Of a stretch of 64,000 nucleotides of DNA, positions 1-64,000 are shown piece by piece; positions within the stretch are counted from its first letter, which is position 1; every line of letters begins with the position of its first letter. The DNA comes from Darksidea phi (taxonomy: Eukaryota; Ascomycota; Dothideomycetes; Pleosporales; Lentitheciaceae), in contig JASJFT010000032.1 of assembly GCA_030770425.1 (NCBI GenBank), positions 1 through 64,000 of the forward strand, in the 5' to 3' direction. The notes below the pieces were generated by a model. It had not been told where the DNA came from, did not search any database, and saw nothing but the letters and a program-made list of their open reading frames with translations. The translations under genes and the position numbers were made by a program.

Positions 1-124
1 TTCGCTAAGATATAGATTAACTAGATTATTATTATATAATATTAGATTACTAACTAAGCCCCTATCTTAGCTTCTAATCTTCTTAGGATACCTCGTATCC
101 TATAGTTCGTATAGGGTTATAATA
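1..124. repeat. Right end of a family C LTR (partial)
   Basis: The sequence from about 36 to 124 matches the right end of the 435-bp insertion at 33195-33629. They share a run of about 20 bases near 37 (attagattactaactaagc) and the terminus gggttataata. The left part lies outside the window. I cannot tell whether this is a solo LTR or one LTR of a complete element, because the DNA to its right is Plavaka-like rather than retroviral. Confidence 0.55.
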
Positions 125-129
125 ATTAC

Positions 130-265
130 CTATAGTTTACTTTTTCTAAAGAGTCTACTTATATTATTCTATAAAAAGGCTATTATTATATTATTATCTA
201 TAGTTTACTTTTTCTAGAAAGTCTACTTATATTATTCTATAAAAGGGCTATTATTATAGTCTTAT
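130..265. repeat. 68-bp tandem duplication
   Basis: Two adjacent near-identical copies start with ctatagtttactttttct at 130 and 198, a period of 68 bp. They lie between the LTR end and the transposase relic, so they could be subterminal repeats of the DNA transposon. No terminal inverted repeat was found to prove it. Confidence 0.6.
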
Positions 266-319
266 CTATATTAGGATTATATATTATTTATTATATTATC
301 TTTACTATCTATAATATAT

Positions 320-3300
320 CTACGTCCCTAACGTCGCCCTTTATAACGACTACTACTAATCTTCTCTTTAGTCTTAGTTCTAGTCTATATTCTCTTATTC
401 TTACTTTTCTTCTTTATTTTCTATTTCTAATACTACTTAAACGTCTTTATCGTCTTATCCCTATTAGATTCGAATAATAGAGAGTATAGCTAATTATATA
501 GTTTAAAATTAATATAGTTATTAATAAATATCTTTTTAAAACTCTTAATTAATAATATAATATATATACCTCTTTATATTATTAGTATAAAGAAGACTCG
601 TCTACTCTCTAAAGTTATCTTAGAAGTTAGTACTATTATATTATTCTCGGTTAGTTTAATTATACTATAGATTAGATATAGTCGTCCTTTATCTATTATC
701 TATAATCTATTTACTATAGCTTTAGTATATATCGTTCGTTTATATATATTATTCTTATTACCTATATCCTATATTATAAAGATTAGATTAATCTAACTAA
801 TAACTTTTTCGTATAGCCTCTATCTTAGATCTATAGAATATAGATCTATCTAAGTATTATAGTTAAACTTATTTATAATAATATAGTCCTTCTACTAATT
901 ATCTTTATATTCCTATAGCTAATAGTATACTAACTAACGTAATATAACCTCTATATCTATTAGATACTTTCTAGCTTTATACTAGTACTATATTAAAGAG
1001 TATATTTATATTATTATTTAATAAATCTAGATTAAATATTCTTTATATATAGATTCGTCTAATAGATTAATAGTAGCTATTAGTATTTAAGAGTTAATAA
1101 GGCGTCTTCTCTTATAACGAATAAAAACTATAAGGATATCGACTAAGTTAGTAATCCTAGATAGTACTATTACTCGTTAAACTATAATCTATTTACTATA
1201 TAGTTAGCCCGATTTTTATACCTTAGAATCTATCTACTATTTAATATTATATAATAGTAGTACCTTTAATAGAGTAGTAACGTATATATTATAAATTTAC
1301 TTTACTATACTAGATATAATAGTACTACTATCCGATATAAATTATACTTCTATAGAGAGTACTACTATTAAATAGCTATTTAGCTATTTAAGTTATAGTA
1401 GTAGGTCTTATTTATTAGTTAACTTATATACTTCCTTAAGAAGAAAACTATATAGTATTTCTCTATTTAGTCTAGTATTATAGCCGTCCGGACTTCCTCT
1501 TAATTAGATAAAATATCTCTAATAGATAAGACTATATAACTTTAAGAGGTTAAAATAACTAGTTAAAGTTATATCTTTTATATAGGGTTAAAAGGCTTCG
1601 AATATATACTTTAAGATATTAATATATCTAAATATATTATCTAAGTATAATAATATATTATTATTATATATTCGGTATTATATTATAGTAATAAAGTTAT
1701 ATACTACTTTAGTAAAATAGATAGTATATAGTTCTTTATTATATAGTATTAGTATTACTACTACTACTAGCTATTATATAATTACTCTCTATTTATCTCC
1801 TATCTACTAGGATATCTTACTAAAGTTAATATAAATAAATTATTATAGACTAGAATATTCTAGTACTATCTTAAATTAGTAGTCTAGTTATACTTTCCCT
1901 CTAATATTATTCGTTAGCCTTCTAGTACCCTTACGAGCTCGTTTTATTAGTATTATATTTCTTACTAACTATTATAACTATTTAACTATATATATAATAA
2001 GGCCCTTTAGTAGTTAATATAATATATCTATTAGTATACCCTTATATATATTAAAGTATAGGTATTTCTATATAAAATATATTATATTATAGATCTACTC
2101 GTTATTTATTTACTTAATTTTATTTCTACGTTACTTCTAAATTTAAGCTTATATATTACTATATATTCGTATTTCCTATAGTTTAAAGAGGAGATTATCT
2201 CTCTTCTCTAGTAGTATCTTATATATTATATAGTATCTATTATTTTTTACGCCTATAATAAGTATTTACTTCTAGTAGTCCATAATTATCTTATATAATA
2301 TAGAATAGTATTTTTAAACTTATTTATTAGTATAGTATATTAGTTTACTATCTATAGCGAGTTTCTTAAGAGCTAATATTAATTAGTATAGAATAAATAT
2401 ACTATTACGTATAGTACTATTTCGATTTAATTAGCTTATACTCTAGTAAATATACTATTATCTTATAATATACTTTAAACTTAATATCTTTATCTTTATA
2501 ATTAATAATTAGAATAAACTTTATTAGAATAATTCTATATTAATTACGCGCTCTTTAGATATCTCTATTAATATTTCTAATTATTAAATAGACTAGCTAG
2601 TATACGGTATCGCTATATAATATTATTATTAATATCTTATCTACTAATATTAGTACTAGAAGAATAGTCGAGCTAGATAGTAGTTTTCCTTATATATTCT
2701 ACTACTAATTTTCTATATTTAGCTCGTTATATATACGTACGTTATAAGATTTATTTTAAAATAAATAAATAGAAGTATACTATATATACTCCGCGAATAG
2801 TTAATATCTAATTAGAAATTATATAACCTTAGCTATATTATAGTATACTAGGTTATATATAGCTAGTAGTATATATTTAATATTTAATATAACCTTAAGC
2901 TTATCGATTATAAAACTATTATTATTAATACTAAAGAGTAGTCTTTCTAGTAGCTTAGACTATTACTTACTAGTCTTAAATAATAATTTATTATATAGTT
3001 CTAATAGTCGACTATCTTCTAATAGTCTATTTATATTATTCTTAGTATATTAGATCTTATATAACTAGAAGGTAAAGATATAATTAAACTATAACTAGAA
3101 TCTATATACTACGAAGTTATTTAGATTAACCCTATTTAGTTATTAGCTAGAGATAGTAGTTTATATTAGTCTATATACTCTTTATAACTATCTATAGCTC
3201 TAAAGCTTATATCTACTTCTATTATATTAATATATTTATATACTACTTTATAGAGTAATTATATAGAGGTTACTAATAATAGTTTATCTTCTTTATTTAC

Positions 3301-3650
3301 TCTTTATATATTATTTATATTTACTATTTAAGAAGCGCTTAAGAGTTAGTTATCTAGATATAGATTAGTTTAGAATCTATTATCTAACTCTATCTTAGTA
3401 GACTCGTTATTATTATACGTACTATTATCTAAGAGTTAGAATTACTAAAATATTTTAGTTCTACTATAGAATATAAATCTATTATCTCTATTCTTAGTCG
3501 ATATAACTAAAGTATTCGATAACTACTTTCTAATTATACTTTATTATATTAGGTATCTAACTATATTATTCTACTCTAGTATATATATTATAAGAATTAT
3601 TATTATAAGACTAGTCTAGATTAATCTTACCTTATATCTATAAGTAAAAA
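320..3650 (-). pseudogene. Plavaka-type DNA transposase relic
   Basis: Read on the - strand through stop codons, one frame keeps the order of conserved blocks of fungal Plavaka transposases (CACTA-like, KDZ-related). At about 2,560-2,730 the relic reads LNIEN, three stops where Trp is expected, NI, a stop, GKL, then VDK, VYLIIRNINRDI and RARN. This follows the family pattern of Asn-rich hinge, WWW, Q-K, SDK, PVYLTIGNI and K-D-I-R. At about 1,415-1,495 it reads GYNTRLNREILYSFLLKEVYK followed by TNK, the usual C-terminal GYNTE-LH-KE-Y-N block. The same frame continues to the right to about 3,600. Both ends are approximate. The tail at 320-420 is Lys/Arg-rich and may not belong. No start codon, TIR or TSD was found. 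The family call comes from remembered consensus, without a search. Confidence 0.55.
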
Positions 3651-5056
3651 GGTTACTAGATATTAACTATTTAATATTATTAACTAGGTACTTTCTATAT
3701 ACGTAGAGGTATTATCTTATTCCGTTATATAAGATAATCCTCCGTATATAGTACTAGTAGATAAGATTAGTTATAATAGTTAATACTATATAATAGATTT
3801 TATATATAATATAGAGAGTATATATAATTATAAAGATTATAATAGTATTAGTATAAGATATACTATATAATATAGTATAGAATATATAACTAGACTATTC
3901 TTAAAATCTTTTAGTATCTTATTATCTTTAGTTTAATACTATAAGTATAATAATATAGAAAGTAGTTTTATCGAATATAGTTTATAAATACTTAATATTA
4001 TACCCCTTAAACTTCTTCTTTATAAGGTATTATCTATACTAATTCTTATATAATATATATATCTCGTAGTCTAGTATTATTCTTAGATCGTAGTTAATAA
4101 AGCTATTCGTATTACTATATATACGACGACTTTAACTAATATATATCTATCTTTATTACCTTTACTTAATATTATACTTAATAGTATAATTTTATATATA
4201 TAATTTTTATACTTTAAAAGTTATATTTATAATAGTTTATTATTATATTAATATCTATTAGACTTTTACTACGAGTATAATATAAGAACTTATACCTACT
4301 ATATTATATAAGTACTTTACTATATTCTTATAGTAATAACGTAAAAAATTCTTTATACTTCTTCTTTCTATTCTTTACTATCTATACTATCTCTATAACT
4401 ATTTACGCTAATAATATTATTTCTTTTTAATATAGAGTCTTATTAATTACTATTATAATTATATTTTTAAGTACTTTTATTAAACTATTATATAATTTCT
4501 TTAACTATCTTACTACTTACTTTTCTATTATCTATCTATCTTACCTCCCCTCTATAGTAAGAAAAGTCGTTATACTACTATACCTATAGATACCTAAAGA
4601 ATAGAAAAAGATTTTAAAAAGTTTTACTAGATTTAATTATATAACTAAACTTAGTATACGGATACTATTTTAAATTATAAAGAAATACTTAGAGAAATTA
4701 ATTAGTCTTATAGTAGTTAAGATTAAGAAAACTTTTAGAATATTATATCTTATTATTAAGAATTATAGTAAGTCGGTAAAGAAGTATAAGACGTATAAGT
4801 ACCTTAAGTAACTAATAAAAAAAAAATTAAAAATTAGCTAATTAACTAATCTAACTATACTAACGTCTTTGGTAAAAACTTCTAGACTAGAGATTATCCT
4901 ACGTCGAATACTAAAGAACTTCTAAAGTAAGAGGTAGTACGTAGTATTATATTTATAGCTAAAGAAAAAGTCTAAAAGAAAACTAAGAAAGAAGATACTA
5001 AAGAGAGTAAAAAGGTTATTTAGTTTAAGTCTAGTTTATCGATAGCTATAGTTAAG
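3651..5056. other. Unclassified decayed DNA left of A1
   Basis: I recognise no domain here. From about 4,560 to 5,050 the + strand is purine-rich and could encode a Lys-rich C-terminal tail, such as that of a DNA transposase, but no motif supports this. TpG at 4870 is one of the few left. A1 was inserted at 5,057-5,061, so this sequence originally continued at 12,101. Confidence 0.4.
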
Positions 5057-5061
5057 TAAGA
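5057..5061. repeat. Left TSD of A1 (TAAGA)
   Basis: TAAGA directly precedes the LTR at 5,062 and is repeated exactly at 12,096-12,100 after the right LTR. A 5-bp duplication is typical of Ty3/gypsy integrases. The match shows that A1 is a single, unrearranged insertion. Confidence 0.9.
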
Positions 5062-5509
5062 TATTAACGGAGTTCGGACCTAATAGGTTATTTAGCCTCG
5101 TTTAGGGTTTATACTTAAGATAGAAATAAAAAAGTAAAAATAAGTAGATAATAGTTTAATTATATTAATAGGTAAGGATTAATCTAGATTTAAAATTAAC
5201 TATAAAAGAAAACTATCTAGAAGATTCGTAGTTATTATATATTAATTTAGTTTTCTTAGATTTATAAGATCTATAGCTCTATATTTTTATAGATCTACTA
5301 ATCTATAAATCTATAACTTTATAGATCTATATCTATTAAGTCTTATAAATCTATAGATCTATTATATAACTTCCTAGTAAAGCTATCTATACTAATTATT
5401 ATTTATACTATAGTTAAGGTTATTATATTCTATATTAGAGCTAGTAATAGGTTTAATCTTAGGTAGCTTCTTTTATTACTATCCTATAGTATATATTTAG
5501 TTCGTAATA
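5062..5509 (-). repeat. A1 left LTR (3' LTR)
   Basis: The LTR is 448 bp with termini TATTA and TAATA, and equals the right LTR in length. It belongs to the LTR subfamily shared with A2, which has long AGATCTATA-type runs near its middle. Confidence 0.92.
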
Positions 5510-5525
5510 CTATTTCCCCTTTCTA
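5510..5525 (-). other. A1 polypurine tract
   Basis: On the - strand, AAAGGGGAAATAG runs directly into the left LTR. This is the plus-strand DNA primer site of LTR elements. Equivalent tracts follow the left LTRs of A2 (13,949), A3 (17,341) and A4 (38,544). It supports transcription from right to left. Confidence 0.75.
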
Positions 5526-8500
5526 AACCTTTAGCTTAGAGGTTATTCTAGATCTAGTACTCGGCTATATTAGTATTAGCTTAGAATCTTCTTAAGTTAT
5601 ATCTTTCTTCCTCTATAGTTTCTTATAAAATTAAAGAATATCTTATACTTATTAATTATATTAGTTATAATAATTCTAAAATATTTCCTTATTCTTAGTA
5701 TAGTAGACTAGGGGTATCTTATATTATTTCTCTTAGTAAAAGTAAATACTATAAAGTCTATATTCGCGTAAACGTATATAATTCTTATTAGTCGTCTAGA
5801 ATTTCTATAACTAAGTATTTATTTTTAATAATAACTCGTATATATAGACTTATATATATTAGGGCGATTTATTAACTATTTATAAGAAAAACTTTAAGCT
5901 TAGTTATAAGTAGTAGAAGAGTATTATAAAGAACTACTTTATTATATAGTTAAGTTTAGTTAAGAGTTATCTAATATATAGGTAAAGGTTTAACGTCTAA
6001 AGAAATAGAAAGAGTTTCTTAATAAGAAGATAGCTAAGTAATCTTATACTCTTAAGGCTAAACTTAATACTAAGAAGATAGAGCTTTAATAGTTAGAGTA
6101 ATAAGAGAATCTAAAGGCCTCTTTAACTACTTTAAACGTTACTTATAATATTATAGATAATATTATTTCTTCTAGTCTATTAAGTATCTTATATTATACT
6201 ATAAATAGTATTAGTCTTCTTAACTTATTATAAGGCGAACTTACCTTATCTTTAGATTTCCTTTAGAATTATAGTTTTAGTACTCTATAAGCTTCTTAAG
6301 ATAATTAAGATTATCTTTAGATTCTTAGATTTATTTTTATAAGTTTTCTTTTTCGTCTATCCCTTACTATTTAATTAAATAGTAGTTTTTTCTATTTCTA
6401 ATATCGTTATTTAGGATTTCTTCTACTTTTTATTCTTTATTATCTTCTTTATATATATCTACTTTATATACTACTAGTTTAGTATTTTATAGTACTTTTT
6501 CTAGTAAACTAATATAGAATATAAGATAGATTTTTATTTATAGGAGTAATCTTAGTTAGTAATTTATAGATAAGACTTATTTCTTAATCTTATAGAGTTC
6601 GATCTTAGTATAGTCTAGTTTACTATTAGATTACTTACTTTTAATATTTTTTCTTAGTAATTATACCTTTTCTCCCTCTTTAAAAGTAGATACTTTCTTT
6701 TACTTCTTATTATAATACTTACTTATTTTATTTTAAAAGAATTCTATATCTTTCTTAAGCTATTAGTATATTTATAGAATAATTTTTACTATTTCTTCTT
6801 TATTCTAGCTATAAGACTAAAGTTACTTAGGTTCTTTATATATTCTTAATTTAATTTTATAGTTTATAAAGAAAGGTATTATCTTTATTATACTATATTA
6901 CGAACTATTATATATAAATTATACTATAAATAAAAGTATAATCTAATTATTCTAGTAGTAGTTTAGATAATATCTAAGGTATTACTCTACTATTTAATTT
7001 ATTCGCTTAATTAGTCTATCTATCTATAGATAATAGGTAGTTAATATACTATATTTTATTTCTAGTTTAGCTATAAGGGTCTACTAAAACTTTACTATAA
7101 ATTTAATATCTTTATTTAAAATAATTTTATCTAGTATTTTATATTTATTAAATATATATCTTAGTAGAATATAGGTAAGTTATTCTATAGTATTTCCCTT
7201 ATTTATATATAGAATAAAGTAAGCGTACTTTATAAACTTATCTACTACTATTAATATAATATTATAGGATACTTCTATTATTAGTTCCTTAGAATATAAT
7301 AATTACGTAATAAAGTCTATAATAATAATCTTCTATAATTCTTTTATATTTTCTATTAGTTATAGTATTCTATAGGGTACGTATCTAGTATACTTATTAT
7401 AATAATAGTCTATATATTCTAAAAGTATCTAAATAACTAACTATCTTATATATAGAAAATAGTATATTCTTATTAATTATTTAAGGGTTTTTTCTACTTC
7501 TTAGTATCTATATATTAGTACTTTATAGTATTATCTAATAAATTCTTTCTATATTATCTTAGGTATATAGGTTTTTTAGAATATATAAATAATTCTATTC
7601 TTCTCTTAGATTACTTTTTAAATTTCGTTTTATTTATTTATTACTTCTATAGTAGTTATACGAATCTATTAAGTCTATTTATTTCCTTCTAATTTAAGTA
7701 TTATCTCTTATATTTCTACTAATTTTAGATAGTTATAAGTAATCGTTTCGTCTAGTTATAATTTAAGAATAGCTATACTAGATTTTTTCGTCCTTTAGTA
7801 ATTAGGTCTCCTACTAAGCGTATCTACTTATTTATTTTCTAATCCTTTAGTATATACGATCTTAATATTATAGATTATAAGAGTTTATACCTATTATATC
7901 TATCTTCTAATTAGAGATTTATTTATTAAGAATCTTATTAGATTCTTATAATCTATATAAATTATAATAGGGTACTTAGATTCCTATAAATTAGATCTCT
8001 ATTCTTTTAGAACTTTAATAATTATTAATAACTCCTTATTATAAATATTATAGTTAAGTTTAGCTATTAATATTTTTTATAAGAAGTAGTATATTAGTTT
8101 AAGGTTATCTTTATTATCTTTCTATAGTAATACTACTCCTATTATATAGTCTAATATATTCGTTTTAATAATCGAGGGTTCTTTAGAGTTATATATCTTA
8201 ATTATAGATTTCTTAGTAAATTATTCTTTAATCTTCTTAAAGACCTATTAGTATTCTTCCTTCTATTTAAAGAATTAGTCTTTTTTTATAAGTTATATAA
8301 GTAGTATTATTATTATACTCTATTATAGTATTAATTTTTAATAGAAGTTATAGAATCCTAGGAATAATTATAGATCTTTAAGATTCTTAGATATTAACTA
8401 TTCTTTAACTTTCTTAATTTATTATAGGTCTACTTTAATTTCTCCTAGTTTAATAATAAATCCTAAAAACTCTATTTCTTATATATAGAATTTATATTTT

Positions 8501-10400
8501 TATAGATAAAGGTATATTTATATCTTCTTAAGCGCCTATAGAACCTTCTTTATATATTCTTTATATTCTTTTTCTATTTTAAAGTAGATTAGAATATTAT
8601 TAAGGTATATTATTATAAATTAGTTAAGATAGTTTTATAAAATATTATTAATTCGTTCTTAAAATATCGCGGGTACGTTAGTAAGTCTAAAGGGTATTAC
8701 TTAGTATTTATATAGTCCTTTCTTAGTTTAGAAAGCTATTTTCTATTCTTTACCTTTCTTAATTCTAATCTAATAATACGCGTTTTAGATATCTAGTTAT
8801 ATAAACTATTTAGCTTTTCTTAATTAATCTTATATTTCTAATATTAGAAATAAGGAGTATTAGTTCTTAATTATAATATTATTAAGCGTTTAGTAATTAA
8901 TATATAATTATAGTTCTATAATATCTTTCTTAGATATAAAGAGAACTAGATATTCTATAGATAAGTTTAAGTATTAAATATATCTTTTTATAAGATTATC
9001 TTCGAGGTACTTTATTATAATCTTTTTCTCTTCTTTAGTTAACTTATAGATTAGTCTAAATTCTAGAGTTTTCCCTTCTTATAATAGAATTACGTAGTCC
9101 TAAGACTAGTATTAGGGTAGGTTTTTCTCTAGTTCTATAAATAATTCCTTCTATTTTTTATATTATTCTAGAATATTATCGTTTTCTTCTTAAGTCGCGC
9201 CTAGATTCTATTATAGAAATAATACCTATTAATTTATCTATTAAATCTAAGGATTAGCTTCTTATAGCTATAATATTCTTAAGATTATATTCTAGTTATC
9301 TAATATCTTAATTACGTCGAGTATTTCGCTTTCTTTCTCCTATATCTATAGGCTAAGTTTACCTTTAGTTTTATATATTATAGGTTTATTAAAGGGTTCT
9401 CCTTTAATAGTATATATAATACTAAGATATTATTTTTTCTATTAAGAGATTCTCTTTCGTTAGATAAAGTCCTTACTAATAAAGTTTTAAGTAGCTCTAC
9501 TATTAATTAGAGTAGTAATCTTTTTTTCTTAATAGGTCCCTTAGAGGTAGATATAGTCCTATCCTTTAGTTTCTTAAATCCTTATTTTCTTCGGCTAGTA
9601 TTTTATATTAATCTTAGTTTATATATACTTTAGATATTTATTTTCTAGATATTTATATTATAATCTTCCTAGAATATAGTTTAATAGTAAAAGTAGTCCT
9701 AGTATAATTCTAATATATTCCTTTTATTATTAATTCTTAAATCGTTACTATCTATATATTACTTTTAGGGTAATTACTTAAGTAATTCTTTTATTATAAT
9801 TTTTTACTAGATAGTAATTATTTTTTTATTTTACTTTCTTATAGAGTTTATATTCCCTTTATATATATAAGATCTATACGATCTTAAAGTATATTAGATA
9901 TTTTATTTTATACTATAGATTATCCTCTAGATTAATCTTATATCTCTAATTATTATATTTTATAAAGATTATTCGTATAGGAATCTATTATTTAATTACT
10001 ATATACTATAGTTATTCTTTATTAACTATCTTTATAATATACTATATCTCTTTCTAAGTTTCTTAGTTAGGTATAAGATCTATAATAATAAAGTTCTATT
10101 TAACCTATTATTTAAAATCTTTAAATAGTTAGTATATTAGGTAAGATCTAGACTATTCTTTATAAATTTCCTATATTATTAAGAATATTATAGTTTTCTC
10201 TATAAATTATAAGGTTCGAGTATAAATTATATTAAGTTTTAGTACTAGTCCTATTTCTTCTTTAGATAGTCGAATTATCTATAGATATTTAGTATTCTTA
10301 TATATTATAACTAGATTTTTATCTTCTAATTCTAAGAACTTATTACTATTATTAACTATTTATAACGACGTATTTAGGGCGTTATTAAAGTCTTTCTACT
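5526..10400 (-). pseudogene. A1 pol relic: RT, RNase H, integrase, chromodomain
   Basis: Read on the - strand through stops. The RT active site at 8,596-8,607 is YLNN followed by ILIYF, where the family has YLDD: both Asp codons followed a T and became Asn. Farther left, an FKEG-KVYLL stretch near 6,680 and a K-IGPYKIK stretch near 6,600 are the GPY/F region of chromovirus integrases, followed by IYPIFYISLLEK near 6,510. A chromodomain lies at about 6,290-6,435 (KVEEILNND, then NYYLIK, two stops in place of Trp, and EN-L). About 850 bp between the chromodomain and the PPT shows no domain. Boundaries between protease, RT and integrase are approximate. Confidence 0.82.
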
Positions 10401-11647
10401 CCGTAGATAAGTCTTCTTTAGATACTTCTTCTTATACTTCTAGTAAGAACGAAACTCTTCTCTAAGACTCCTAAGTTATAACTACTTACTATTTCTATAA
10501 CTAATAGCTAGTATTTAACTTAGTTTTATAGTATATTTTATACTAGTCGTATATATAAGTCGTCTAATATATAGTATTATATTCTTATATTATAGCTACT
10601 TTATCTTTTTTACTTTACTAAGTATATTAGGGTTTTTCTTTCTTTAGACCTATTCTATAGTCTTTTACTAAGTATTCTTACTTCTCGTATTTAAAGTATA
10701 CTCGTTTTTTATAGAGCTCTTATTTCTTAGAATTCTATTTTTCTTTTTTAGGTTTTAGACTAGCCCCTAGAACTATTACTTCTAATCTATAGTATTTTTC
10801 TTTTTTTTTTTTTATAGAATCTAATCTTTCCCTTTCTTTCTAGATTCTAGAGATAGAGGTTATCGTTAATCTTAATAGCTTATTTAATTAGTTCTTTTAT
10901 AATTTAGGGTCGTTCTATTTAAATTATTTTATAATAGATATAGTTCTTTAGTCCCTCGTAATATTATAATATAAGGGCTACCTCTTCTTATTAGATTTTT
11001 ATAGTAAGTTATTTAAACTTAGATATATAAGTTATAGTAGATTTCGTTTATTTAAGACGTATAATTTTTTATTCTATTAATCTTTCTAAATTAATATTTT
11101 TAAAGGTAATAATATATAACTTATTCTTAAAGTACTTATAACTTAAGAAGATAGCCTTTATCTTATTACTTTACTAAACCTCTAGTAGTTATAGTTATTC
11201 GTTTAAATACGTTTTAAACTAAGTAATAGCTTTCCCTATAAACTAAGCTACTATAAATAATACTTTATTACTTTTAATAGATAGTTTTATTCTATTAAGG
11301 TCGAGATAAATCGCTATATTAGTTAGGAATTCTCTAAGCTTTAATCTTATTCTATTAAACTTCTCTAGTTCTCTAAGCTTTAATAGTTTACTTATATATT
11401 TTTAAAGTTAAGTAGTTAACTTTATAAGTTAAACTTTTAATATATCCTTCCTCTTCTTAAATATATACTAATTCTTAATAATTCTTTTAAAGTTTTCCGT
11501 AGTTATACTATCTTCTAGGGAATTAAATTCCTAATAGCTTTCTACCTCTAAGGGTTCGACCTAAGTTAACGACTATATTATTTTACTTTATTAAGTTCCT
11601 TCTTCTACTATCGTAGTTAGCTATTCCTATCTACTAGATAGTTAAGG
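10401..11647 (-). pseudogene. A1 gag relic with zinc knuckle
   Basis: The gag region follows the right LTR in the - direction. At 10,657-10,698 it holds YFKYEK*EYLVKDY. This is a retroviral CX2CX4HX4C zinc knuckle in which all four metal ligands are now Tyr, as expected when TGT/TGC (Cys) and CAT/CAC (His) lose their CA or TG to RIP. The same relic is at 21,064-21,105 in A2 and 43,670-43,711 in A4. N-terminal gag is too decayed to delimit, and no start codon exists. Confidence 0.75.
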
Positions 11648-12095
11648 TATTAATAAGGTCTAGGTCTAATAGGTTATTTAGTCTCGTTTAGGGTTTATAC
11701 TTAAGATAAGAATAAAGAAGTAAAAATAAATAGATAATAGTTTAATTATATTAATAGATAAGGATTAATCTAGATTTAAAATTAACTATAAAAGAAAACT
11801 ATCTAGAAGATTTATAGTTATTATATATTAATTTAGTTTTCTTAGATTTATAGGATTTATAGCTCTACGTTCCTATAGATCTACTAATCTATAGATCTAT
11901 AGCTCTATAAATCTATATCTACTAAGTCTTATAAATCTATAGATCTATTATATAACTTCCTAGTAAAGCTATTCGTACTAATTATTATTTATACTATAGT
12001 TAAGGTCGTCGTATTCTATATTAGAGCTAGTAATAGGTTTAATCTTAGATAGCTCCTCTTATTACTATTCTATAGTATATATTTGGTTTATAATA
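11648..12095 (-). repeat. A1 right LTR (5' LTR)
   Basis: This 448-bp LTR carries the same termini as its partner at 5,062. A TpG at 12,084 (tttgg) is an A-to-G difference from the other copies, so it arose after RIP. Confidence 0.92.
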
Positions 12096-12100
12096 TAAGA
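12096..12100. repeat. Right TSD of A1 (TAAGA)
   Basis: This is an exact duplicate of 5,057-5,061 and closes the A1 insertion. Confidence 0.9.
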
Positions 12101-13492: not shown

Positions 13493-13497
13493 ACTAG
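13493..13497. repeat. Left TSD of A2 (ACTAG)
   Basis: ACTAG precedes the LTR at 13,498. The sequence after the LTR ending at 22,504 is GCTAG, one transition different. Together with the LTR relationship, this supports 13,498 and 22,504 as the two ends of one insertion. Confidence 0.65.
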
Positions 13498-48108: not shown

Positions 48109-48199
48109 ATAGAGTTTTAATTTCTAAGTCTAGTATTAAAACGACTAAAACGATCTATAAGAGGTCGAAAATAGATAGTAAATAAGAGTAAGAGTAAGA

Positions 48200-52790: not shown

Positions 52791-52799
52791 TATAGATAT

Positions 52800-53260
52800 A
52801 GTAAATATTATTAGAATTCTATACTTTAACTAATAGTATAGTACTATAGATTCTAGTAGTACTCTATACGAGTATAGTTATATTCTAAATAATTATAATA
52901 AGAAGTTCTATTTAATAACTTTATTCTATATTATAGCTAATAGTATATTCTCTATAGAGGTATCCTAGTAGATTATTACTAGTAATAATAATTATAATAA
53001 GAAGCTCTATTTAATAACTTTATTCTATATTATAACTAATAGTATATTCTCTATAAAGGTATCCTAGTAGATTATTACTAGTAATAATAATTATAGTAAG
53101 AAGCTTTATCTAAAAACTTTATTCCGTACTATAGCTAATAGTACGTAGTATAGAGATAATAGTATACTTATAAATAAGATATTCTTATTAATAATTATAA
53201 ATAACTATAATTATAGTAAAGGAGTTATATCTAATAGCTATAATATATACTCTAGCTAAT
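52800..53260. repeat. Direct repeats of about 99 bp, five copies
   Basis: The anchor ttctatattatagctaatag or its variants occurs at 52,817, 52,924, 53,023, 53,122 and (weak) about 53,240. The central spacings are 99 bp. It is the same family as 12,505-12,850. On the - strand one frame repeats R-IPL*R and YRIKLLNRAS every 33 residues, which weakly recalls ankyrin repeats; the + frame is not excluded. Confidence 0.68.
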
Positions 53261-53499
53261 AGTATATTATAAATAGCGATATATTAATCTATTACTAGTA
53301 CTTCTATAACCTAGTTATTACTTCTAGAGATTAATTAGGGCTATTTAATATCCCTACTAACCCCTAGTAGTAACGAATTAGAAGTAATTAGGCTAAAAAG
53401 AAGCGTATAAAGGTATAAAAAGAAGAAAGTAAAGGTACTTTAAAAGAGAATTAATTCTATAAGTAAAAAAAAAGATATTTATTAACTTAGATTTATTTT
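53261..53499. other. Unclassified spacer
   Basis: Short AT-rich stretch between the 99-bp repeats and the start of recognisable E2 sequence. Nothing identified. Confidence 0.3.
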
Positions 53500-54332
53500 T
53501 TAGCCTAGTACTATACTATTATTATATTAACTAGGTCGTTTTAGCGACTCTATAAGTCTATTATTAAGAGTTTTTAATAATAAGTTCTAGATTAAAGTAC
53601 TTATAGGTATACCTACTATAGTATTTATCTATAGTACTATATAATATATTTTAGATAGAAGTTTTATAGAGTAAGAAAATAGATATATTTTATTAATAAG
53701 TATACCCTATCTATAAGTATATAAGTATAGGATAATAAAATAAAATATTAAAATATTAGTATAAATAGAATAGTAGAGACTTATTATACTAGTAATTTAT
53801 ATAAATCTACCTCTACTAGTACTACTCTATATTATATTAATATATATCTTTTTTAAAACTAAAAGTTAAATAAGAGACGAGAGTATATAGTCTTACTAAG
53901 ATATTATATAAATTATTAAAAGAGATAACTATTTATAGTAGTAAACTATAATACTATTAAGTAGTATTATTATTACTATATCTAGATTATATACTAATAA
54001 AGTATAAAATTCTTTTACTTATTACTATAAGAACTATAGTCTTAACCCTTTTATAAAGTCTAAGTCTAATAATTACTTAACTCTTAATAAGTATCTACTA
54101 ATAAATTTATTAACTTAATTAGAGGTAACTTAGTAACTAGTAAAATAGCGTATATAATACTACTAGATAATTCTACTACTATTACTAACTATAGGACTAT
54201 TATTATCTATATTATAATTAGTAATACTATATAGACTATCTACTCTTTTATCTAGAAGATCTATCTTAATAAGATATAATCGACTAATTAGAGTAAGATT
54301 ATTATAGTTAGTAATAATCGGTACGTATTATA
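53500..54332 (+). pseudogene. E2 copia-like gag and protease relic
   Basis: A paralogue of 31,600-31,840: the + frame has LLDNSTTITN, with its Asp at 54,166-54,168, in place of the copia protease LDSGA motif. A Tyr-rich stretch near 54,020-54,060 (YYYKNYS) may be a former gag zinc knuckle. The similarity to E1 is moderate, so the two are old, separate copies. It is cut at 54,332 by B2 and resumes at 62,914 directly in the 111-bp array. Confidence 0.48.
54328..54332. repeat. Left TSD of B2 (TTATA)
   Basis: TTATA precedes the LTR at 54,333 and is repeated exactly at 62,909-62,913. Confidence 0.85.
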
Positions 54333-54518
54333 TATTACGTCTACTTCTACTAGAGAACTTCTAGATTATTATCGACCCGATTATAGTTATATATCGAACC
54401 CTATATAATTCTATATTCTACTATTATATCTTCTTAAGAATTCGTCTTATCTCTATCTAAATATAATCTCTTTACTATCTTAGTATCTCTATACCTATCT
54501 ACCTATATATATCTTATA
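54333..54518 (+). repeat. B2 left LTR (5' LTR)
   Basis: This 186-bp LTR begins TATTACGTCTACTTCTAC and ends TCTTATA. Confidence 0.93.
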
Positions 54519-57310
54519 ATTTAAATCCTTTCTACTCCTTTTTAAGGACTAGTAGTATAGTATCGACGCTAAAAGTTAATACTTTAAAAGTTCTTATTAA
54601 TTATACTATACGACGTCTATTTAAAGCTATTAGTATATCTCCTTATACTACCTACTTAAAGAAGAATATCTACTCTAGTACCTATTTATCTAGTAGACGA
54701 AATAACCCTAACGCGTAGCTAGTCGACGAAATATACTAGTAGCGCCTTAAGTTTAATAAATAATAAGTTTAAGAACTAGAATTAGATAATAAAGATAATT
54801 ACTAGCTAAGGGATCTATTTAATTCTAAAAATATTTAAAAGGGTTAATACGTTTCTAAAACCTCTACGACCTATATATAGTACGATAGTAGAAATATCTT
54901 AAAGATATCTAATAATCTACTATCTTTTAGTAGGACTCTAATAATAATTATAATAGATAGGGACTATTAATCTATATAAGAAAATAATAGAATATCTAGC
55001 TATAAAAATACGGCTCGTATAAGTAGATTCTAACTATACTAATTCTTAGCTTCTACTATACTACCTATATTAGGAGCTAATAATACTCTAATAAATAGTA
55101 ATTACCTAGGTATAGCTTATACTATATCTATTTATACTCTAATCTTAAGTAAAATACTTTTAGTTAAAGTAGTATAAATACTACTTAATTTTTAATACTA
55201 GAATATACTAGTTAACTAGATCGAGGCTATATAAGTAGATCTTATTATAGTCTAAGTAGCCTTTAGACTAGCTATAGTAACCCTTTAAACTATAGCCGGC
55301 CTACCCCTAGTAGATAATACTCGTTAGGGGCTATCTAATTTAACTAAGATTAGGGACCCTTCTATACTAGGCTTATTAAAGAAAATCCTAATAATCTAAG
55401 CTATAGACTATTAGATTAGAGATATTAATAGTCTCTTCTAAATTAACTTTACTACTATTAATATTCTTAAGCGTACTATATAGATTATAATACTTATTAA
55501 AAATAATATATATCGTAATCTACTAGTCTAAACTATTAATAATAACGAAGTTATTATATAACTTTAGTTATAGATAAAACTTAAGAGTCTTATAGAGGAC
55601 CCCGTTCTAACGAAGTTTAATAACTATTTTAAATTTTAGAACGTCGAATAGTACTAGAATAATAGCTTTAACTTCTTTTTTAACTATTTTATAACTCTTA
55701 AAGCTACTTTAGAGGTAAAGTCTTTTAGTAGTAATATAAGTTCTAATATATTAAAGATATCTATAGTATAGAATAAGTATCTAGAATCCTTATATTATAA
55801 GATATAAAGAGATAGCTAGCTTAAGAATATATAAACTTAGTTATAGTTTAAATATATCTTATAGAATATAAAGATAGTAATATACTCTACCTTTATATTA
55901 GCTACTCTTCTAAAGGTTTCTAGCCCTAATTTAACTATAAGTAGAAAGTATACTATATCTTTAGTAGCTTTAAGTAATTCCGGCTAGAAGAAATAGAATT
56001 AGAAGCCCTCTTAGTAGGACTATACTAGATAGTCTCTATTAAGAACTCTATTATATTCTAAGAGTATAGCGTTAACGTCCCGATTAGAGACTAACTAAAA
56101 GAAGAACTATTAGAAGTATTACTCTAAAGGCGATAATAGATTAGATAAAGCTTAAAAAGAGAAAGTTAATTTATTCTTAAAAAAAGATAAGTTCTAGTTA
56201 CTAATATTACTATAATACTACTAGGGCTAAATACTAATAGTAAATTCTTATAGATTACTAGTAATATAAGGATATACCTTCTTATAGACGTTTCGATATA
56301 GGTCTAGAGTCTTTTTAATATAGGATTAAACTTAAATATTATTAGAAAGAATTTTATATTATAGTAAAATCTTTCTAAAATATTATTATATATAAAGCTA
56401 TAAATATATTAAGTCTCTAGTATACTACTATATCTAGAAGAGCTATACGTTATTATAATAATAATATAGGATTCTTAAAGTATAATAAGAATAATAGATT
56501 CTTAGATATTTTAAACTACCTCTATAAATAGCTATAACCTTATTCTTAGCTAGCTATAGCTATATAAGGTAGACCCTTAAGTAAATTACTAAAAGGGATC
56601 TTTTAAGTAGTAGGATAGGAGTATAATAGTTAAGTATATTAAAGTTAAGATAATACTTAATAACTTAATATAATAGTTATAACTTAAGAAGAAAGTATAT
56701 ATATTATATCTAAAGAGCTTTTATACTCGATTACTTATAAATAAGAAAGAATATTAACTCTAATTCTCTAATATAGTAGAGGTTATAGAATATCTATAGA
56801 TATTTATTAATAAGATATAAACTTTAGAGGGTAATAAGCCTTAAGATACTTAATACTAAAATAAGTAGAGTCTATTTTAGTTAAAAAACTAGATTCTATA
56901 ATTTTATAATTACCTTATCTACTATATAAAATAATACCCTAAACTAGTATAGCTATCTAAGACTATAGTCTCCTAGATTATAGTATTAATAATAAATACC
57001 CCTCTATAAAGAATTATAGCTCTTTATTAAAAGAGGTAATAGAAGTTTAAGAACTATCTAAATACTTTCTATAATAATTTTAATAAGAAAATTAACTTTA
57101 AGAAAGTTATAAAGGTACTAGAATATCTTTATAATTAGTTTTAGTACTTTAGTCCTAAATTTACTAGTAGAATTACTCCTAACTTAGAATATAACTATAC
57201 TATTAATCTTAAGAAGAAAAAGATACTATTAAATCTACCTATTTATAATCTCTTTAAAAGAGAACTTAAGATTTTAAGAGAATACCTTAATAACTCTCTA
57301 AAGAAGAGGT
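54519..57310 (+). pseudogene. B2 gag and protease-side relic
   Basis: Colinear with B1 32,262-35,460 minus the solo LTR. The + frame is followed through TAG/TAA codons that stand for former Gln and Trp. No zinc knuckle or protease motif could be pinned down. It resembles no gag I know in its N-terminal 250 codons. Confidence 0.55.
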
Positions 57311-60300
57311 AGATTTAGTTTAGTAAGTCTTTAGTAGGGACTCTAATACTTTTTATATCTAAAACTAATAGTATACTTTAATTATATATTAATTATAGAG
57401 GTTTAAATAAGATAATAATTAAAAATTATTACCTTATACCTTTTATAAGCGAGATACTAGACTAGCTATTTAGGACTAAGATCTTTATAAAACTTAATCT
57501 TTACGAGATATATTATTAATTATATATTAAGAAGGGTAATAAGTAGAAGATAGTATTTAAAATATACTATAATTATTTTAAATATCTAGTAATATTATTT
57601 AATCTTATAAATATATCTATTATATTTTAGTCGTATATCTATAAAATCTTAAGTAGTCTATTAAATAAAATATATATTATCTATTTAGACGATATTCTTA
57701 TATACTCTAAAGAGAAGAAGGATTATAAATAATATATTTATAAAGTCCTTAAGAGATTATATAATTAGGGACTCTATTATAAAATCTTAAAGTATATTTT
57801 CTCTATAAAGTTAATAGAGTTTTTTAACTTTATAGTAACCCTCTATAGGGTAGTTATAGACCTAATATAGGTCTAAATAATTAAAGAGTAGCTAGAGTCT
57901 AAAGATTATTAAGATATTTAAGTATTTCTTAGATTTATAAACTTTTACTAATAGTTTATATATAACTACTTAGATATTATTTATTTACTTCTAGAATATA
58001 TAACCTCTACGTAGAATCTAATACTAGTCTAATAAGATTCTAATAAGGATATATTAGTAGAAAAGTTAAAAAAGATTAAGAAGGATTATATAAAGTAGTA
58101 TATCTTTTAGTTTTAGCTAAAGGATATATATAATATATTTTTTATACTCTATAAGCTCTTTATAAGAGTCTCTATTCTTTAATACTTTAATCTAATAAAA
58201 CTTGTAATAGTTATTACTAACGCCTCTAAGTTTATTATAATAGCTATCCTATTATAACTATAAATAATAATACTCTTAATAGAAAAATACTAGAAACTAG
58301 TTACGTTCTTTAGTTATAAGTTTACTAGACTATAGATTTAATAAAATACTTATAATAAAGAGTTATTTACTATTATAAAAACTTTTAAATAGTAGTAATA
58401 CTATTTTAAGTATATTCTAGATACTATTTATATACTATATAACTATAATAATCTAAGGTATTTTATAACTATAAAGATATTCTTATCTAAGTAAATATAC
58501 TAGATTAAAGAATTAGCTTATTTTAATTTTAAGATTAAATATAAGTCTAGTATAAAGAATCTAATCGATATACTATTATAACGACCTAATTATACTAAAG
58601 GCTTTTAACTTAGAAAGAAAAAAGTACTAAGAAATATTATACTTCCTATACTCTAAAATAAACTCTAGATATAGATATTCTAGAAGCTTATAGCTCTATA
58701 CGCTAAAGGTTAGATAGTATATAAATCTAATCTTACTAATAAGAATCTATAAGTAATCTATTAGAAATTTAAAGATAGTATAAATTATTCTACTATAGGA
58801 TTCTTTAGTATAATATTAGTTTTTAATAATATATTATCTATTAATCTTAATCTATCTATAAGTAGGGACGATAAATCTAGAGAATAATTAGAAGGCTTAG
58901 ACCTAGCTTTAATATTCTTTTAATATTATAAAGTATTTTCTACCTTTATATTATATAAGTCTTTATTAAAAGTTATAAATAATAACTTACCCTTTAGCTA
59001 GGAAACTCCTAGACTACTATTAAACTATATCTAGAAAGTATAAGAATATAATATAGTCTATTATAAGAATATATAGTATATACGAAAGTTTAAGAGTAAA
59101 GAAGAGTAAAAGGGTATATCTTTATAGATTATAGATTCGAAGGATGTCCTTTAAAGAGTAGAGAAAGTATAAATTTCTAATAATAAAGCTTTTTATTAAG
59201 CTATCCTTATAAGGAATTATAATAACCCTCTAGAGGACTATTATAAAGTAAATAAGACTATTAAACTTCTATAAAGAAAGTATTATTAACTAAAGTTTTA
59301 AGTAGAGGTTAATACGTACGTATAAGGCTACGTAGTATACTAAATAAATAAAATATAAAGATATAAGCTATAAGGGTTATTAGAACTAATTCTTCTATTA
59401 TAAAAGCTATAGTATAATTACTTCTTAGACTTTATTACTAATCTACTAGAATCTAAGGATTCTAAGGGTAATATCTATAATATAGTACTAGTACTTATTA
59501 ATTACTTTTTAAAGCTAGTCTAGTACTTATCTATAATAAAGAATATTACTATAAGTATATTAGCCGACCTATTATTTATAGAAGTATTTACTAAGATCGG
59601 ACCTCTATTATTACTAATCTCGGACTAAGACTCTATCTTTACTAGTAAATTCTAATTAGATATATACTTTTATTTTAATATTAAATAATAAATAAGTATA
59701 ACTTTTTACCTATAGATAAATAGTTAAACTAAATACTAGAATTAGGAGCTTAAAGTATACCTATAGATATACCTAAACTATTAGTAAAATAACTAGTATT
59801 AGTTACTTCTAATAATAGAATACGTATATAACTCTAAGATTTATTTAAGTTATAGTATATACTCTATTAAGATTATAATAGATATTAAATCTAAGGGTTT
59901 TAATAACGTAGAAGATAAGTATTAGTTTTATTAATCGTCTAGTAACTAGAGTATAAATAGAAAGACCCTAAGTATAGATTAGAAAGTTATTAACTTTCTA
60001 ACTAACTAGGTATAATAGTTTTTTAATACTTAGAATATATTAATCTATACTTAGAAGAGCTAATAATACTAATATAACTTAAAATAAACGAGTAAATATT
60101 TTACTATCGGCGAAAAGATAATATTAAAAACTACTAATATTAAGACTAAGTACTCTTTAAAGAAGTTAGATATAAAGTATTTAGAATTCTTTACTATTTA
60201 AACTAAGTATAAGAAGCTAAGCTACTAACTTAAGCTACCTCTATTAATATCTTAGTTATATTCTATCTTCTATATATCTCTTCTAGAGAAATAGATAAAA

Positions 60301-60640
60301 TTAAGAAAAGATCTAAACTTTAGATCTAGACCTATATAGTATCTAGAGCTTAATAATAATAATTAATATAAAGTCGAAGTTATTCTCGTATATAAGATAG
60401 TATATAATAAGAAGCTCTTTCTTATAAAGTAACTAGATTAGTTATATAAGAATAGTATATAGAAGTCTAAGACCTCTTTTAATAATTATAATAAGATTCT
60501 TACGAAATATTAGATAAACCTAGATAATTAAATATTAGATCGTCTAAAGTAGAAAGCTACTAGAAAAGTATTATAACCTCTATAGAGGAATAGTAATATA
60601 TATAAAAAATCTTAAAGGGGTAGACTATATAAGTAATATT
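57311..60640 (+). pseudogene. B2 pol relic: RT, RNase H, integrase, chromodomain
   Basis: RT spans about 57,340-57,880, with YRGLNK near 57,400, KIFIKLNLY near 57,480 and an intact YLDD at 57,682-57,693 followed by ILIYSKEK. RNase H follows at about 58,190-58,600. Integrase runs from about 58,820 to 60,310, uninterrupted here. The chromodomain is at about 60,367-60,480 (KVEVILVYKI, then NKKLFLIK). TpG at 58,203 and 59,145 lie in this relic. Catalytic Asp codons of RT survive because none follows a T. Confidence 0.88.
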
Positions 60641-60699
60641 AATATAAAAGAAGGACTAAGAGATCTAGCTAAAAGATACCCTTAGAACTCTACTTAGAG

Positions 60700-62722
60700 G
60701 ATATTATATAAGTAGAATAATTAGTTAAGAAAGAGAATATTATCTACTTTAATAATAAGCTACGGCTTAAAGGATTTAGTAAGACTAGCCTTTATAAATT
60801 ATAATAATAGATAGATTAACTAGTAATAATAGTATCGGAATTAATAAGCTAGATTTTTAATATAGGTATTTATTCTATCTATATACCTTAATAATAAGAA
60901 TCTTAACTAAATACTATACGATCTATAAGTAATCTAAGTAAACTACGTATACTAGGTAAGAAGTTCCTAGAGAAGCTTTATAATACTCCCTTCTAAGGGG
61001 TAATAGGTATTATACCTCTATTAATAATATTTCTATTAGAAATATTAGGGCTATAATAGTACTAATAATACTTATAATTAGTAGTCCTAAGAAGTATACT
61101 AGTCGAAGAGTTATACTTAATAAAGTAAGCTTTATAGATAATAGAGGCTACGAAGTTAGTAGGTACTAGATAGCTAATACTACTTAGTCTATACTAGAGG
61201 AATTAGTATAGAAAACTATTAAAAAGATAATAAAATATATCTAATAGTATTAGAAGTTAAGCTTATACGTCGTAGTTATAGCCTAATATAATTCTACCTT
61301 ACTACTAGTATTCTTAATTAGATACTTCTACTTAGCCTTATACTAGTTCTAATTAGTATTAATATTAAAAGTATAGGACTATATATTCTATTAAATCTTC
61401 TTTAGTATATTAGAATTTATATTCTTATTATTACGAGTAGCTTAGACGTTATAATACTAGATATACTTAATAGTAAAGATAAGAAGGTTAAAGTAGTAAT
61501 AGAAAGTAGACTTAATTTATACGAATTATTAGTAGAACTATATTAGTAGAAAGAAGAGAAGACTAGTATATATTACTAAGTAGGTCTAATAGTAAGCTTT
61601 ATACCTACTATAGGTAGTATAGATATTAGCCTTTTAGTACTAGTTATTTAAAGTAATCTAATAGAGCTTAGCTATATTAAACTTCTATATAAACTAGAGA
61701 AGGTAGTTTATATACTAATAATATATAAGAGGAGGCTAAGGTTCTAGATAGATAGAAAGAGTATAGATATACTTAGAAAGGATAGTATTACTATACTAGC
61801 TAGTAGAGATAATTATAATAAGAGGTAGAATTTAAAGAGTATTAAGAAATAAAGTAAAAAAATCTAGAAGTAAATATATTTTCTTATATTTATATTAAGA
61901 AAGATCGTTTCGTACTTAAGCTAATAGTATCCTAGGTACTTACTAGTAAGAGTCTAAAATATAGAAATAAAGATATCTAAAGAGATATAGTATATAATAA
62001 TTTATTATCTCTTAAATAAATATCTATAAAGATATAAATAGAATTTCTCTTACTAGAAGAGTTATAGATAAACGAGTAATTTAATATAATTATAAGTTAT
62101 AATAGACGGTAGCTAGTAATTACTAAGTATTATTAGGTTATACTATTATAATAGATATTAAGACCGAATTAAACGGAGTTTAGACTAGTTTTAAAGCCTT
62201 TATAAAGATATTATAAGTAAGTAGAATAATTATAAAAATTATACTTAGTAAATAGCTCTTATATAAAGATAGTAAGTATTTATTAGATAGAAGTTATCGA
62301 AAATTACCTATAAGGGGAGCGATAATACTATTATTACTAGTATAAGAATCTATAAGAATACGTATAAACTATAAGTTATAATAGTAATAGATAAAAGTTA
62401 TAAATATATACTTATAATAGACTAATACTTAAGTTATATATACTTTTTAATTAAACTAGCTATATATTATAAGATTAGGGTTAAGGACTATAAGGCTAAA
62501 AAGACTATAGAAACCCCCCGTTAAAATAGTAGAATATAACGTAGATACTAAATATCTAAAAGATCTTCTTTATAAAATTATTTTTTCTTTAGAAATAGAA
62601 TTTTTTAGAAGTATAGATACTTAGGTAAACTTTTCTAAAGAAAGTAAAGGGACTAATAGAATACGTCGTAGTAAATAACTCTTAATAAGGACTAGAATAG
62701 TCCTTAGGAAAGAGAAAGGCTA
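60700..62722 (+). other. B2 extra 3' segment, function unknown
   Basis: Colinear with B1 45,890-47,917 and similar along its whole length. The segment was therefore part of the family before these two copies inserted. No domain is recognised on either strand. It ends in the purine run ggaaagagaaaggc beside the LTR, which fits the polypurine tract. Confidence 0.5.
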
Positions 62723-62908
62723 TATTATATCTACTTCTACTAGAGAACTTCTAGATTATTATTAATCTAGCTATAGTTATATATCGAACCCTATATAGTT
62801 CTACGTCCTACTATTATATCTTCTTAAGAATTCGTCTTATCTCTATCCGAATATAACCTCTTTACTACCTTAGTATCTCTATATCTATCTACCTATACGT
62901 ATTTTATA
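62723..62908 (+). repeat. B2 right LTR (3' LTR)
   Basis: This 186-bp LTR begins TATTATATCTACTTCTAC and ends TTTTATA. It is followed by the TSD copy TTATA. Confidence 0.93.
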
Positions 62909-62913
62909 TTATA
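62909..62913. repeat. Right TSD of B2 (TTATA)
   Basis: This is an exact partner of 54,328-54,332. The 111-bp array starts at this point, so B2 landed at or inside the first array unit. Confidence 0.85.
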
Positions 62914-63715
62914 TTAAAGTATACTATTATATATAATATAATTTTAATCTAGACTTTATAAACCCTTAGCTTCTATTCTTATCTCTAAGTATTAGTAATA
63001 GTAGACTACTTAGTATATATTATATTAAAGTATATTATTATATATAGTATAATTCTAATCTAAACTTTATAAATCTATTACTTCTATTCTTATCTCTAAG
63101 TATTAGTAATAGTAGACTACTTAGTATATATTATATTAAAGTATACTATTATATATAATATAATTCTAATCTAGACTTTATAGATCTATTACTTCTATTC
63201 TTACTTTTAAGTACTAGTAATAATAGACTACTTAGTATATATTATATCGAAGTATATTATTATATATAGTATAATTTTAACTTAAACTTTATAGATCTAT
63301 TACTTCTATTCTTACCTCTAAGTACTAGTAATAGTAGACTACTTAGTATATATTATATCGAAGTATACTATTATATATAGTATAATTCTAACTTAAACTT
63401 TATAAATCTATTACTTTTATTCTTATTTCTAAGTACTAGTAATAGTAGACTACTTAGTATATATTATATCGAAGTATACTATTATATATAGTATAATTCT
63501 AATTTAGACTTTATAAATCTATTACTTCTATTCTTATCTCTAAGTACTAATAATAGTAGACTACTTAGTATATATTATATTAAAGTATACTATTATATAT
63601 AATATAATTCTAATCTAAACTTTATAAATCTATTACTTCTATTCTTATCTCTAAGTACTAATAATAGTAGACTACTTAGTATATATTATATTAAAGTATA
63701 CTATTATATATAGTA
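62910..63715 (+). repeat. E2 array of exact 111-bp units (about seven copies)
   Basis: The anchor attaaa or atcgaa occurs at 62,913, 63,024, 63,135, 63,246, 63,357, 63,468, 63,579 and 63,690, each exactly 111 bp apart. In the + frame each unit reads IKVYYYI*YNSNLNFINLLL and ends RLLSIYY, with the same single TAG position as in E1. The first half of the unit is shared with E1 and the second half has diverged. Each unit also contains the near-palindrome tactattatatatagta. Confidence 0.88.
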
Positions 63716-63749
63716 GAATTCTAAAGAACTAGCTAATATAAACTAAGTC

Positions 63750-64000
63750 TACGTTCTTCTTAACTCTTATTAATAGAATATTTAAGTAAATCTAAGTTAA
63801 TAAACTAAGTTTAAAGCTTATAAAATATCTAAAGATTTACTTTTTAAGGTAGTACTCTATTATCTTCTACCCTACAAGAGGTATAATACCCTTTCTAACC
63901 CTTATTAATAGAATATCTAAGCGAATCTAAGTTAATAAACTAAGTCTAAAGTCTATAAAAAGTCTAAAAGATATACTCTTTAAGATAGTACTCTATTATC
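63750..64000. repeat. 136-bp tandem duplication at the window edge
   Basis: The word cttattaatagaatat starts at 63,765 and 63,901, followed in both by colinear sequence ending in gtagtactctattatc. The period is 136 bp, not a multiple of 3. The second copy runs to the window end, so more may follow. The rare CA at 63,875 lies in the first copy. It directly follows the E2 array. Confidence 0.75.

Follow-up and report, generated by a model that had tools for sequence, protein, structure and literature searches.

A CpA- and TpG-depleted nest of repeated elements in the Darksidea phi genome fits repeat-induced point mutation at an extreme

The stretch analyzed here (the window) comprises the first 64,000 bp of the 319,439-bp contig JASJFT010000032.1 of Darksidea phi (assembly GCA_030770425.1; 51.35 Mb in 477 contigs were searched). 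It is occupied over its whole length (1..64000) by an AT-rich block of nested repeats almost devoid of the dinucleotide CpA and of its reverse complement TpG, and this block extends past the window to approximately contig base 71,200. An exact count gave 4 CA and 13 TG sites, where base composition would lead one to expect 5,463 and gene-space density about 8,590, so that the near extinction of both dinucleotides described in the initial annotation (about 17 sites) is confirmed and the count lies nowhere near expectation. The depletion is uniform, with 0–2 CA/TG sites per 2-kb bin in all 32 bins and a longest CA/TG-free run of 11,131 bp; the excess of TG over CA (13 vs 4) has a two-sided p of 0.049, as one of several comparisons looked at. 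With a GC content of 21.9% (78% A+T), a TpA/ApT index of 1.57 and a (CpA+TpG)/(ApC+GpT) substrate index of 0.0032, the window displays the CpA target and TpA product typical of repeat-induced point mutation (RIP). ATG occurs five times, the longest stop-free frame among all six measures 100 codons, and a search over the 64 kb revealed neither an open reading frame of 100 aa or more nor a tRNA.

Comparison of copies revealed a nest in which element D holds three copies of element A (A1, A2 and A3), element C and repeat B, while the first copy of repeat B (B1) in turn holds a fourth copy of element A (A4); all features are given without strand assignment. Element D is divided into four pieces, located at 1..5040 (at least nine other copies of 4.1 kb or more, with 89–91% identity; 40 of 236 candidates scored), 12096..13496 (13 other near-full-length copies, 86–90%), 30955..32075 (12 other near-full-length copies, 84–90%) and 48770..53960 (nine other copies, each 3.7 kb or longer). 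Matches to all four pieces occur on eleven contigs, in three of which (C231, C130 and C154) the piece order was confirmed by coordinates. On C231 (~23294-39129) the element is roughly 16 kb long and has tandem subrepeats of 68 bp at one of its ends.

Element A is of the long terminal repeat (LTR) type, a label that refers to its terminal direct repeats only. Copy A1 (5049..12095) carries them at 5049-5509 and 11635-12095, 90% alike and distinguished by 44 transitions and 2 transversions; A2 (13497..16930), recognized by copy comparison, is truncated; and A3 (16920..22504; terminal repeats 16920-17356 and 22041-22504) has an internal deletion. Between the two terminal repeats of A3 there are 28 transversions and 9 gaps, as compared with 2 transversions in A1 and 1 in A4, and A3 may be a recombinant of two insertions. 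Copy A4 (38103..45103; terminal repeats 38103-38546 and 44660-45103) is inserted in B1, and a 10-base overlap at 59915-59924 in the second copy of repeat B (B2) fits a short target-site duplication for it. The part of A4 at 38547-41500 has at least 39 other near-full-length copies with 86–91% identity (40 of 430 first-look candidates scored, self included). Element C (23067..30954) is bounded by terminal direct repeats at 23067-23342 and 30679-30954 (87%), and at least 16 further long copies of its portion 23400-30600 occur in the genome (17 of 257 candidates scored, counting the element itself). Repeat B is represented by B1 (32076..48760), colinear with 54333-63555 apart from A4 and 33195-33628, and by B2 (54333..62870), which has at least seven other copies, five at full length (8 of 425 candidates scored, counting B2 itself). 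A 111-bp tandem array lies at the end of B2 (62905..63724; 7.4 units, 93% matches) and a related 111-bp array at the end of B1 (48209..48712; 88% matches between units), the likeness of the units holding despite heavy mutation. Overall, 62,847 of the 64,000 bases are present in at least one other copy, as shown for 31,446 by seven genome searches and for the rest by copies within the window; the 1,153 bases left by this tally, chiefly 22516-23066 and 33195-33628, are CpA-poor too.

Transitions of the C-to-T/G-to-A kind account for most of the differences between copies, as in RIP. A gapless pair of 4,479 bp differs by 489 transitions and 10 transversions (499 differences), and the ten in-window pairs range from 67:28 to 237:0, i.e., a 2.4- to 49-fold excess of transitions with one pair lacking transversions altogether. 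For a set of 13 element A copies that align without gaps over 2,954 bp, the 78 pairwise comparisons yielded 26,543 transitions and 1,722 transversions (mean 340:22 per pair; 15-fold), and comparison of the window with six AT-rich pieces elsewhere in the genome yielded 8,476 and 785, respectively. Transversions private to one of the 13 copies number 36 in 38.4 kb (0–7 per copy), too few for a comparison of age with erosion.

In sampled gene space, the depletion noted in the initial annotation is absent: CA observed/expected ratios were 0.97–1.18 at 16 loci, and four further 10-kb pieces (L028-L031) contained 115–158 CA+TG per kb, values that represent a sampling of the genome rather than a whole-genome scan. 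Across 200 one-kb bins from 20 arbitrarily chosen 10-kb pieces (16 at contig starts, hence a biased sample), 68 were CpA-poor (12 or fewer CA+TG), 126 were gene-like (80 or more) and only six fell between, five of which straddle a block edge; the 68 CpA-poor bins together hold 54 CA+TG in 68 kb. At the block edges examined, CA+TG passes from almost none to normal across 100–300 bp. Duplicated DNA is hit and sampled single-copy gene space is spared, as in RIP. Elsewhere, outside the window, two edge zones lacking CpA, with GC reaching 40–44%, looked like leakage of the process into single-copy DNA. Both proved to be repeats, one with three other full-length copies (L027) and one (L015) with at least 35 other matches that each span 600 or more of its 800 bases, and leakage was rejected for both.

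The genome also encodes putative enzymes for such a process. On contig C306 lies a DIM-2-type gene whose open frame encodes DNA_methylase, BAH and DUF7893 domains; proteins of Lentithecium fluviatile (74% identity over 54% of the query) and Byssothecium circinans (59% over 74%) are among its nearest named relatives. A RID/Masc1-type cytosine methyltransferase gene, as expected of a RIP-competent fungus, was found on contig C466 (RID/DmtA-type), with a frame that is open when hand-spliced at two GT-AG introns and a product whose best match is again L. fluviatile (69% over 100%). Its motif IV, LSPPCCYWSPAHT, is identical in L. fluviatile, with LSPPCCFFSPAHT in Plenodomus lingam, and a recognizable motif IV was present in 13 of the 14 homologues compared. 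The named best-match relatives of both proteins, Lentithecium first, we take to be Pleosporales fungi, which places the genome in that order, close to Lentithecium. Two further loci were noted, namely a second RID-like C-terminal match at C3:91316-91507 (L005) and a DNA_methylase domain at C429:84998-85504 (L003), which lies in a 2,014-codon open frame and is apparently distinct from DIM-2 and RID.

The initial annotation also held that CpG had been spared, a claim ruled out both by absolute densities and by copy alignments. The CpG density is 11.0 per kb in the window, whereas gene space, sampled over 120 kb, has 69.1 per kb. The loss would be about 84% if the repeats began with gene-like CpG, and the copy alignments, which need no such assumption, agree. 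The observed/expected ratio of 0.92 makes CpG look spared because G and C are themselves rare in the window. After CpA, CpG was the most often differing context in nine of the ten copy pairs; in the remaining pair, CpG and CpC were level. For the gapless 4,479-bp pair, the proportion of differing sites (among those with C in at least one copy) was 86% at CpG, 63% at CpC and 32% at CpT, with all three CpA sites differing. In the 13 element A copies, C was retained at 0.72 of CpT (517 sites), 0.55 of CpC (43 sites), 0.23 of CpG (288 sites) and 0.08 of CpA (4 sites, about one copy in 13), these being overestimates of retention, as only columns with at least one remaining C are visible. Cytosines outside CpA were lost more slowly, in the order CpG > CpC > CpT, with a per-C loss hazard of ~0.75 for CpG, 0.60 for CpC and 0.33 for CpT (CpG about twice CpT). 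CpT, the second target in Neurospora, is here the context least hit, a test of context order that later deamination could confound.

The lost CpG sites ended mostly as TpA. Six in-window pairs (some sharing a copy) contain 401 cells with CG in one copy, which face TA in 309 cases, CG in 72, TG in 3, CA in none and other states in 17. For the window against the six AT-rich pieces elsewhere, the 1,247 CG cells (37 overlapping high-scoring segment pairs, not independent) divide into TA 1040, CG 155, TG 4, CA 2 and other 46, and in 144 column pairs of the 13 element A copies, chosen as holding only TA, CG, TG or CA, the 1,872 cells comprise 1439 TA, 417 CG, 10 TG and 6 CA. Loss of one C at a time regardless of the product would be expected to accumulate TG and CA, which is not seen, and the simplest reading is a two-step route from CG through TG (or CA) to TA: since TpG is CpA on the other strand, a CpG that has lost one C would itself be a CpA site and would be cleared next. 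The position of the leftover CA/TG points the same way. Among 22 such sites in the 13 copies, 17 stand in CG columns, 4 in otherwise all-TA columns and 1 elsewhere; within the window, 12 of the 17 leftover sites could be aligned to another copy, one of them to a gap, and CG is the partner at 5 of the other 11, as compared with 1,157 of 10,876 TA sites (10.6%). Most CA/TG left today are thus likely to be CpG-derived intermediates rather than survivors of the original CpA, judging from their alignment partners. With 16 intermediates per 417 surviving CpG (0.038; Poisson range 0.022–0.062), CpA loss is estimated to be about 26 times faster than loss of the CpG dinucleotide (rough 95% range 16 to 46), a model-based figure that assumes a steady state and becomes a lower bound if the intermediates postdate the last activity. 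A literature search for a sequential CpG-TpG-TpA route in RIP found a single paper, in which RIP is said to reverse 'CpG to TpA', stated without data (PMC5148876); this outcome does not prove that the route is otherwise unpublished.

Densities along the CpA-free DNA are consistent with CpA having been cleared early. The 723 windows (200 bp each) that contain no more than one CA/TG cover a continuous GC range of 12 to 43%, along which CpG drops from 60 per kb (in 2 windows) to 2.8 per kb (in 29). Computed removal of all CpA from gene space gives a GC content of 39.5% with 69 CpG per kb, which resembles the least eroded of the CpA-free windows. When the measured CpG, CpC and CpT losses are added, the computation gives 19.2% GC and 14.8 CpG, 12.2 CpC and 232 TpA per kb, as compared with 21.9%, 11.0, 13.6 and 224 observed in the window. 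CpA was thus cleared early and fully, and the overall AT content reflects later events. The claim of the initial annotation that RIP had gone to completion with almost absolute specificity accordingly holds for completion at CpA, while the specificity is strong in rate only, CpC and CpT being eroded too. At positions 4300-4700 of one sampled piece (L027, contig C450), a repeat with GC up to 44%, almost no CA/TG and three other full-length copies besides partial ones perhaps represents a young stage, with CpA gone and the other contexts nearly intact.

Taken together, these results make it very probable that the window consists of nested repeats, in part flanked by LTRs, that were mutated by a RIP-like C-to-T mutator directed at repeats. 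Three observations support RIP at CpA: transitions dominate, RID- and DIM-2-type genes are present and the gene space sampled is unaffected. Across the repeats examined, CpA was the first to be cleared, essentially completely and on both strands, and the other cytosines were lost more slowly. CpA would act as a sink into which each half-converted CpG falls, the putative enzymes being, by family membership, the RID and DIM-2 homologues encoded by the genome; for the slow erosion, leaky RIP, a DIM-2-dependent mitotic mutator and deamination of methylated C are candidates. Many RIP cycles, as proposed in the initial annotation, are compatible with these kinetics, although sequence does not tell how many there were.

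Bipartite genomes with AT-rich blocks occur in other fungi, Leptosphaeria maculans among them. The pattern fits ordinary RIP biology at an extreme, differing in degree and in secondary order. Like RIP of the RID/DIM-2 type in Pezizomycotina, it involves C-to-T changes on both strands of repeats with CpA preferred and TpA as product, AT-rich blocks set between normal gene space, and RID- and DIM-2-type genes; unlike it, CpA loss is essentially complete and the secondary order is CpG > CpC > CpT. Published substrate indices are 0.2–0.3 for Fusarium circinatum (large RIP regions; PMC7882544), 0.09 for Neostagonosporella sichuanensis, also of the Pleosporales (PMC11444983), and 0.48–0.74 for four of the repeat families listed in Stagonospora nodorum (PMC2621366), and the contrast with 0.003 over 64 kb may be overstated, since each published value averages a wider set in which some of the DNA may be only partly mutated. 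Nested inactivated repeats in AT-rich DNA likewise characterize the AT blocks of Epichloe festucae (nested repeats, peak 25% GC; PMC6218096), Paecilomyces variotii (~20% GC; PMC6300479) and the RIP regions of Fusarium poae (average 14.9% GC; PMC7882544). Per-block CpA/TpG counts as low as here were not met in the available portions of the literature on those blocks, which is no proof of their absence.

Several points weigh against the scheme of early CpA clearance followed by stepwise conversion of CpG. Loss per C at CpG is little above that at CpC, the dinucleotide total being high because CpG has a C on each strand, and the order of contexts departs from the CpA > CpT > CpG > CpC given for Neurospora crassa in a review (PMC10170752). 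The CG-to-TA changes may partly reflect both strands being hit in one event. Non-CpA losses in the 13 copies showed no clear clustering by strand or distance relative to 20 column shuffles at 2–400 bp (one of 12 comparisons, opposite strand at 2–10 bp, lay ~2 standard deviations above the shuffles), and clustering at 400–1600 bp, taken without shuffles, was near zero; there is thus no positive sign of strand-tract events, and processive events are neither proved nor excluded. The computed losses under-predict CpT (68 vs 86 per kb observed), and the GC spread among CpA-free windows may be partly original. More-diverged pairs are richer in transversions (A1-A4, 887:232; terminal repeats of A3, 67:28), so not all divergence is mutator-made, and older or recombined pairs carry ordinary divergence too. 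No search was aimed at un-mutated repeats, and best-match lists favour mutated copies.

Among the alternatives, the strongest is classical premeiotic RID-driven RIP acting alone, with leaky contexts over many sexual cycles and no need of deamination, to which we give only slightly less than an even chance. It agrees with the RID-type gene with its conserved motif IV, with the targeting of repeats and their sharp edges, and with CpA-free zones showing little other erosion in both a low-copy (L027) and a high-copy repeat (L015, GC 18–40%). The context order unlike that of N. crassa (PMC10170752) speaks against it, and the residual TpG/CpA, situated mostly at CpG, is explained equally well by deamination after the last cycle.

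Clearing might instead have been mainly mitotic, with a DIM-2-dependent mutator acting at CpA in methylated repeats and deamination of 5-methylcytosine (CG > CC > CT) feeding new CpA sites; we regard this as possible, with doubt outweighing belief. In Zymoseptoria tritici with a functional dim2, more than 98% of the C-to-T mutations in ~1,000 mitoses occurred at CA, and methylation of transposable elements followed the order CG > CA > CC with CT almost free (PMC8016269). CpA-specific C-to-T change, there in methylated repeats, is shared with the window, and the methylation order corresponds to that of the non-CpA losses here; because of this resemblance, a mitotic DIM-2 contribution is plausible, and the presence of a DIM-2-type gene and the lack of clear strand tracts agree with it. 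On the other hand, CpT, nearly unmethylated in Z. tritici, is still ~28% lost here, as against 36 private transversions in 38.4 kb, and this loss argues against a pure 5-methylcytosine route. CGs remained unmutated in the one-year Z. tritici experiment (PMC8016269), while here CpG is ~78–84% lost over a much longer time, and the RID-type gene is open-framed as well, so that RIP would have been available.

Spreading of RIP from duplicated units into single-copy DNA, so as to erase it, was offered in the initial annotation, as the alternative to many cycles, from the absence of any untouched island, and is very improbable. The entire window is indeed CpA-free, and RIP leakage has been sought and described in other fungi (PMC10823647), but the inference is unnecessary because 62,847 of the 64,000 bases are multi-copy; both leakage-like edge zones are repeats, and the edges are sharp. 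An explanation by simple AT bias in mutation or by the usual decay of methylated CpG, with nothing directed at CpA, would account for low GC and depleted CpG and yet can practically be discounted, being refuted by the CA/TG count, since CpG decay yields precisely the missing TG and CA, as well as by the transition excess both in the window and among the 13 copies and by block edges elsewhere in the genome, where CpA is back to normal after a few hundred bases.

Under the preferred reading of a RIP-like mutator on repeats, we tentatively propose, with less than even confidence, a one-way CpG-TpG-TpA conveyor in which the CpA mutator would outpace CpG loss at least ~26-fold. If so, the number of TpG/CpA intermediates would read out how recently, and whether, the mutator has been active, CpA-free sequence would be the starting point of RIP and not its end, and the GC content within CpA-free DNA would be a clock of cumulative exposure. 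Should the two-step route hold, TpG/CpA at CpG positions would offer a sequence-only test for an active CpA mutator in fungi without a known sexual stage. The process itself is known, and its end state here is clean enough to give relative rates by context without a cross. The case of CpG, which seemed spared as G and C became rare, also illustrates that observed/expected ratios mislead in RIPped DNA.

The second edge zone corresponds to a repeat of about 750 bp at positions 201-1000 of its piece (L015, contig C75; 40 of 182 candidates scored). Seven of its matches start at contig base 1 (C362, C218, C311, C410, C453, C205 and C215), and the repeat may mark assembly breaks or chromosome ends.

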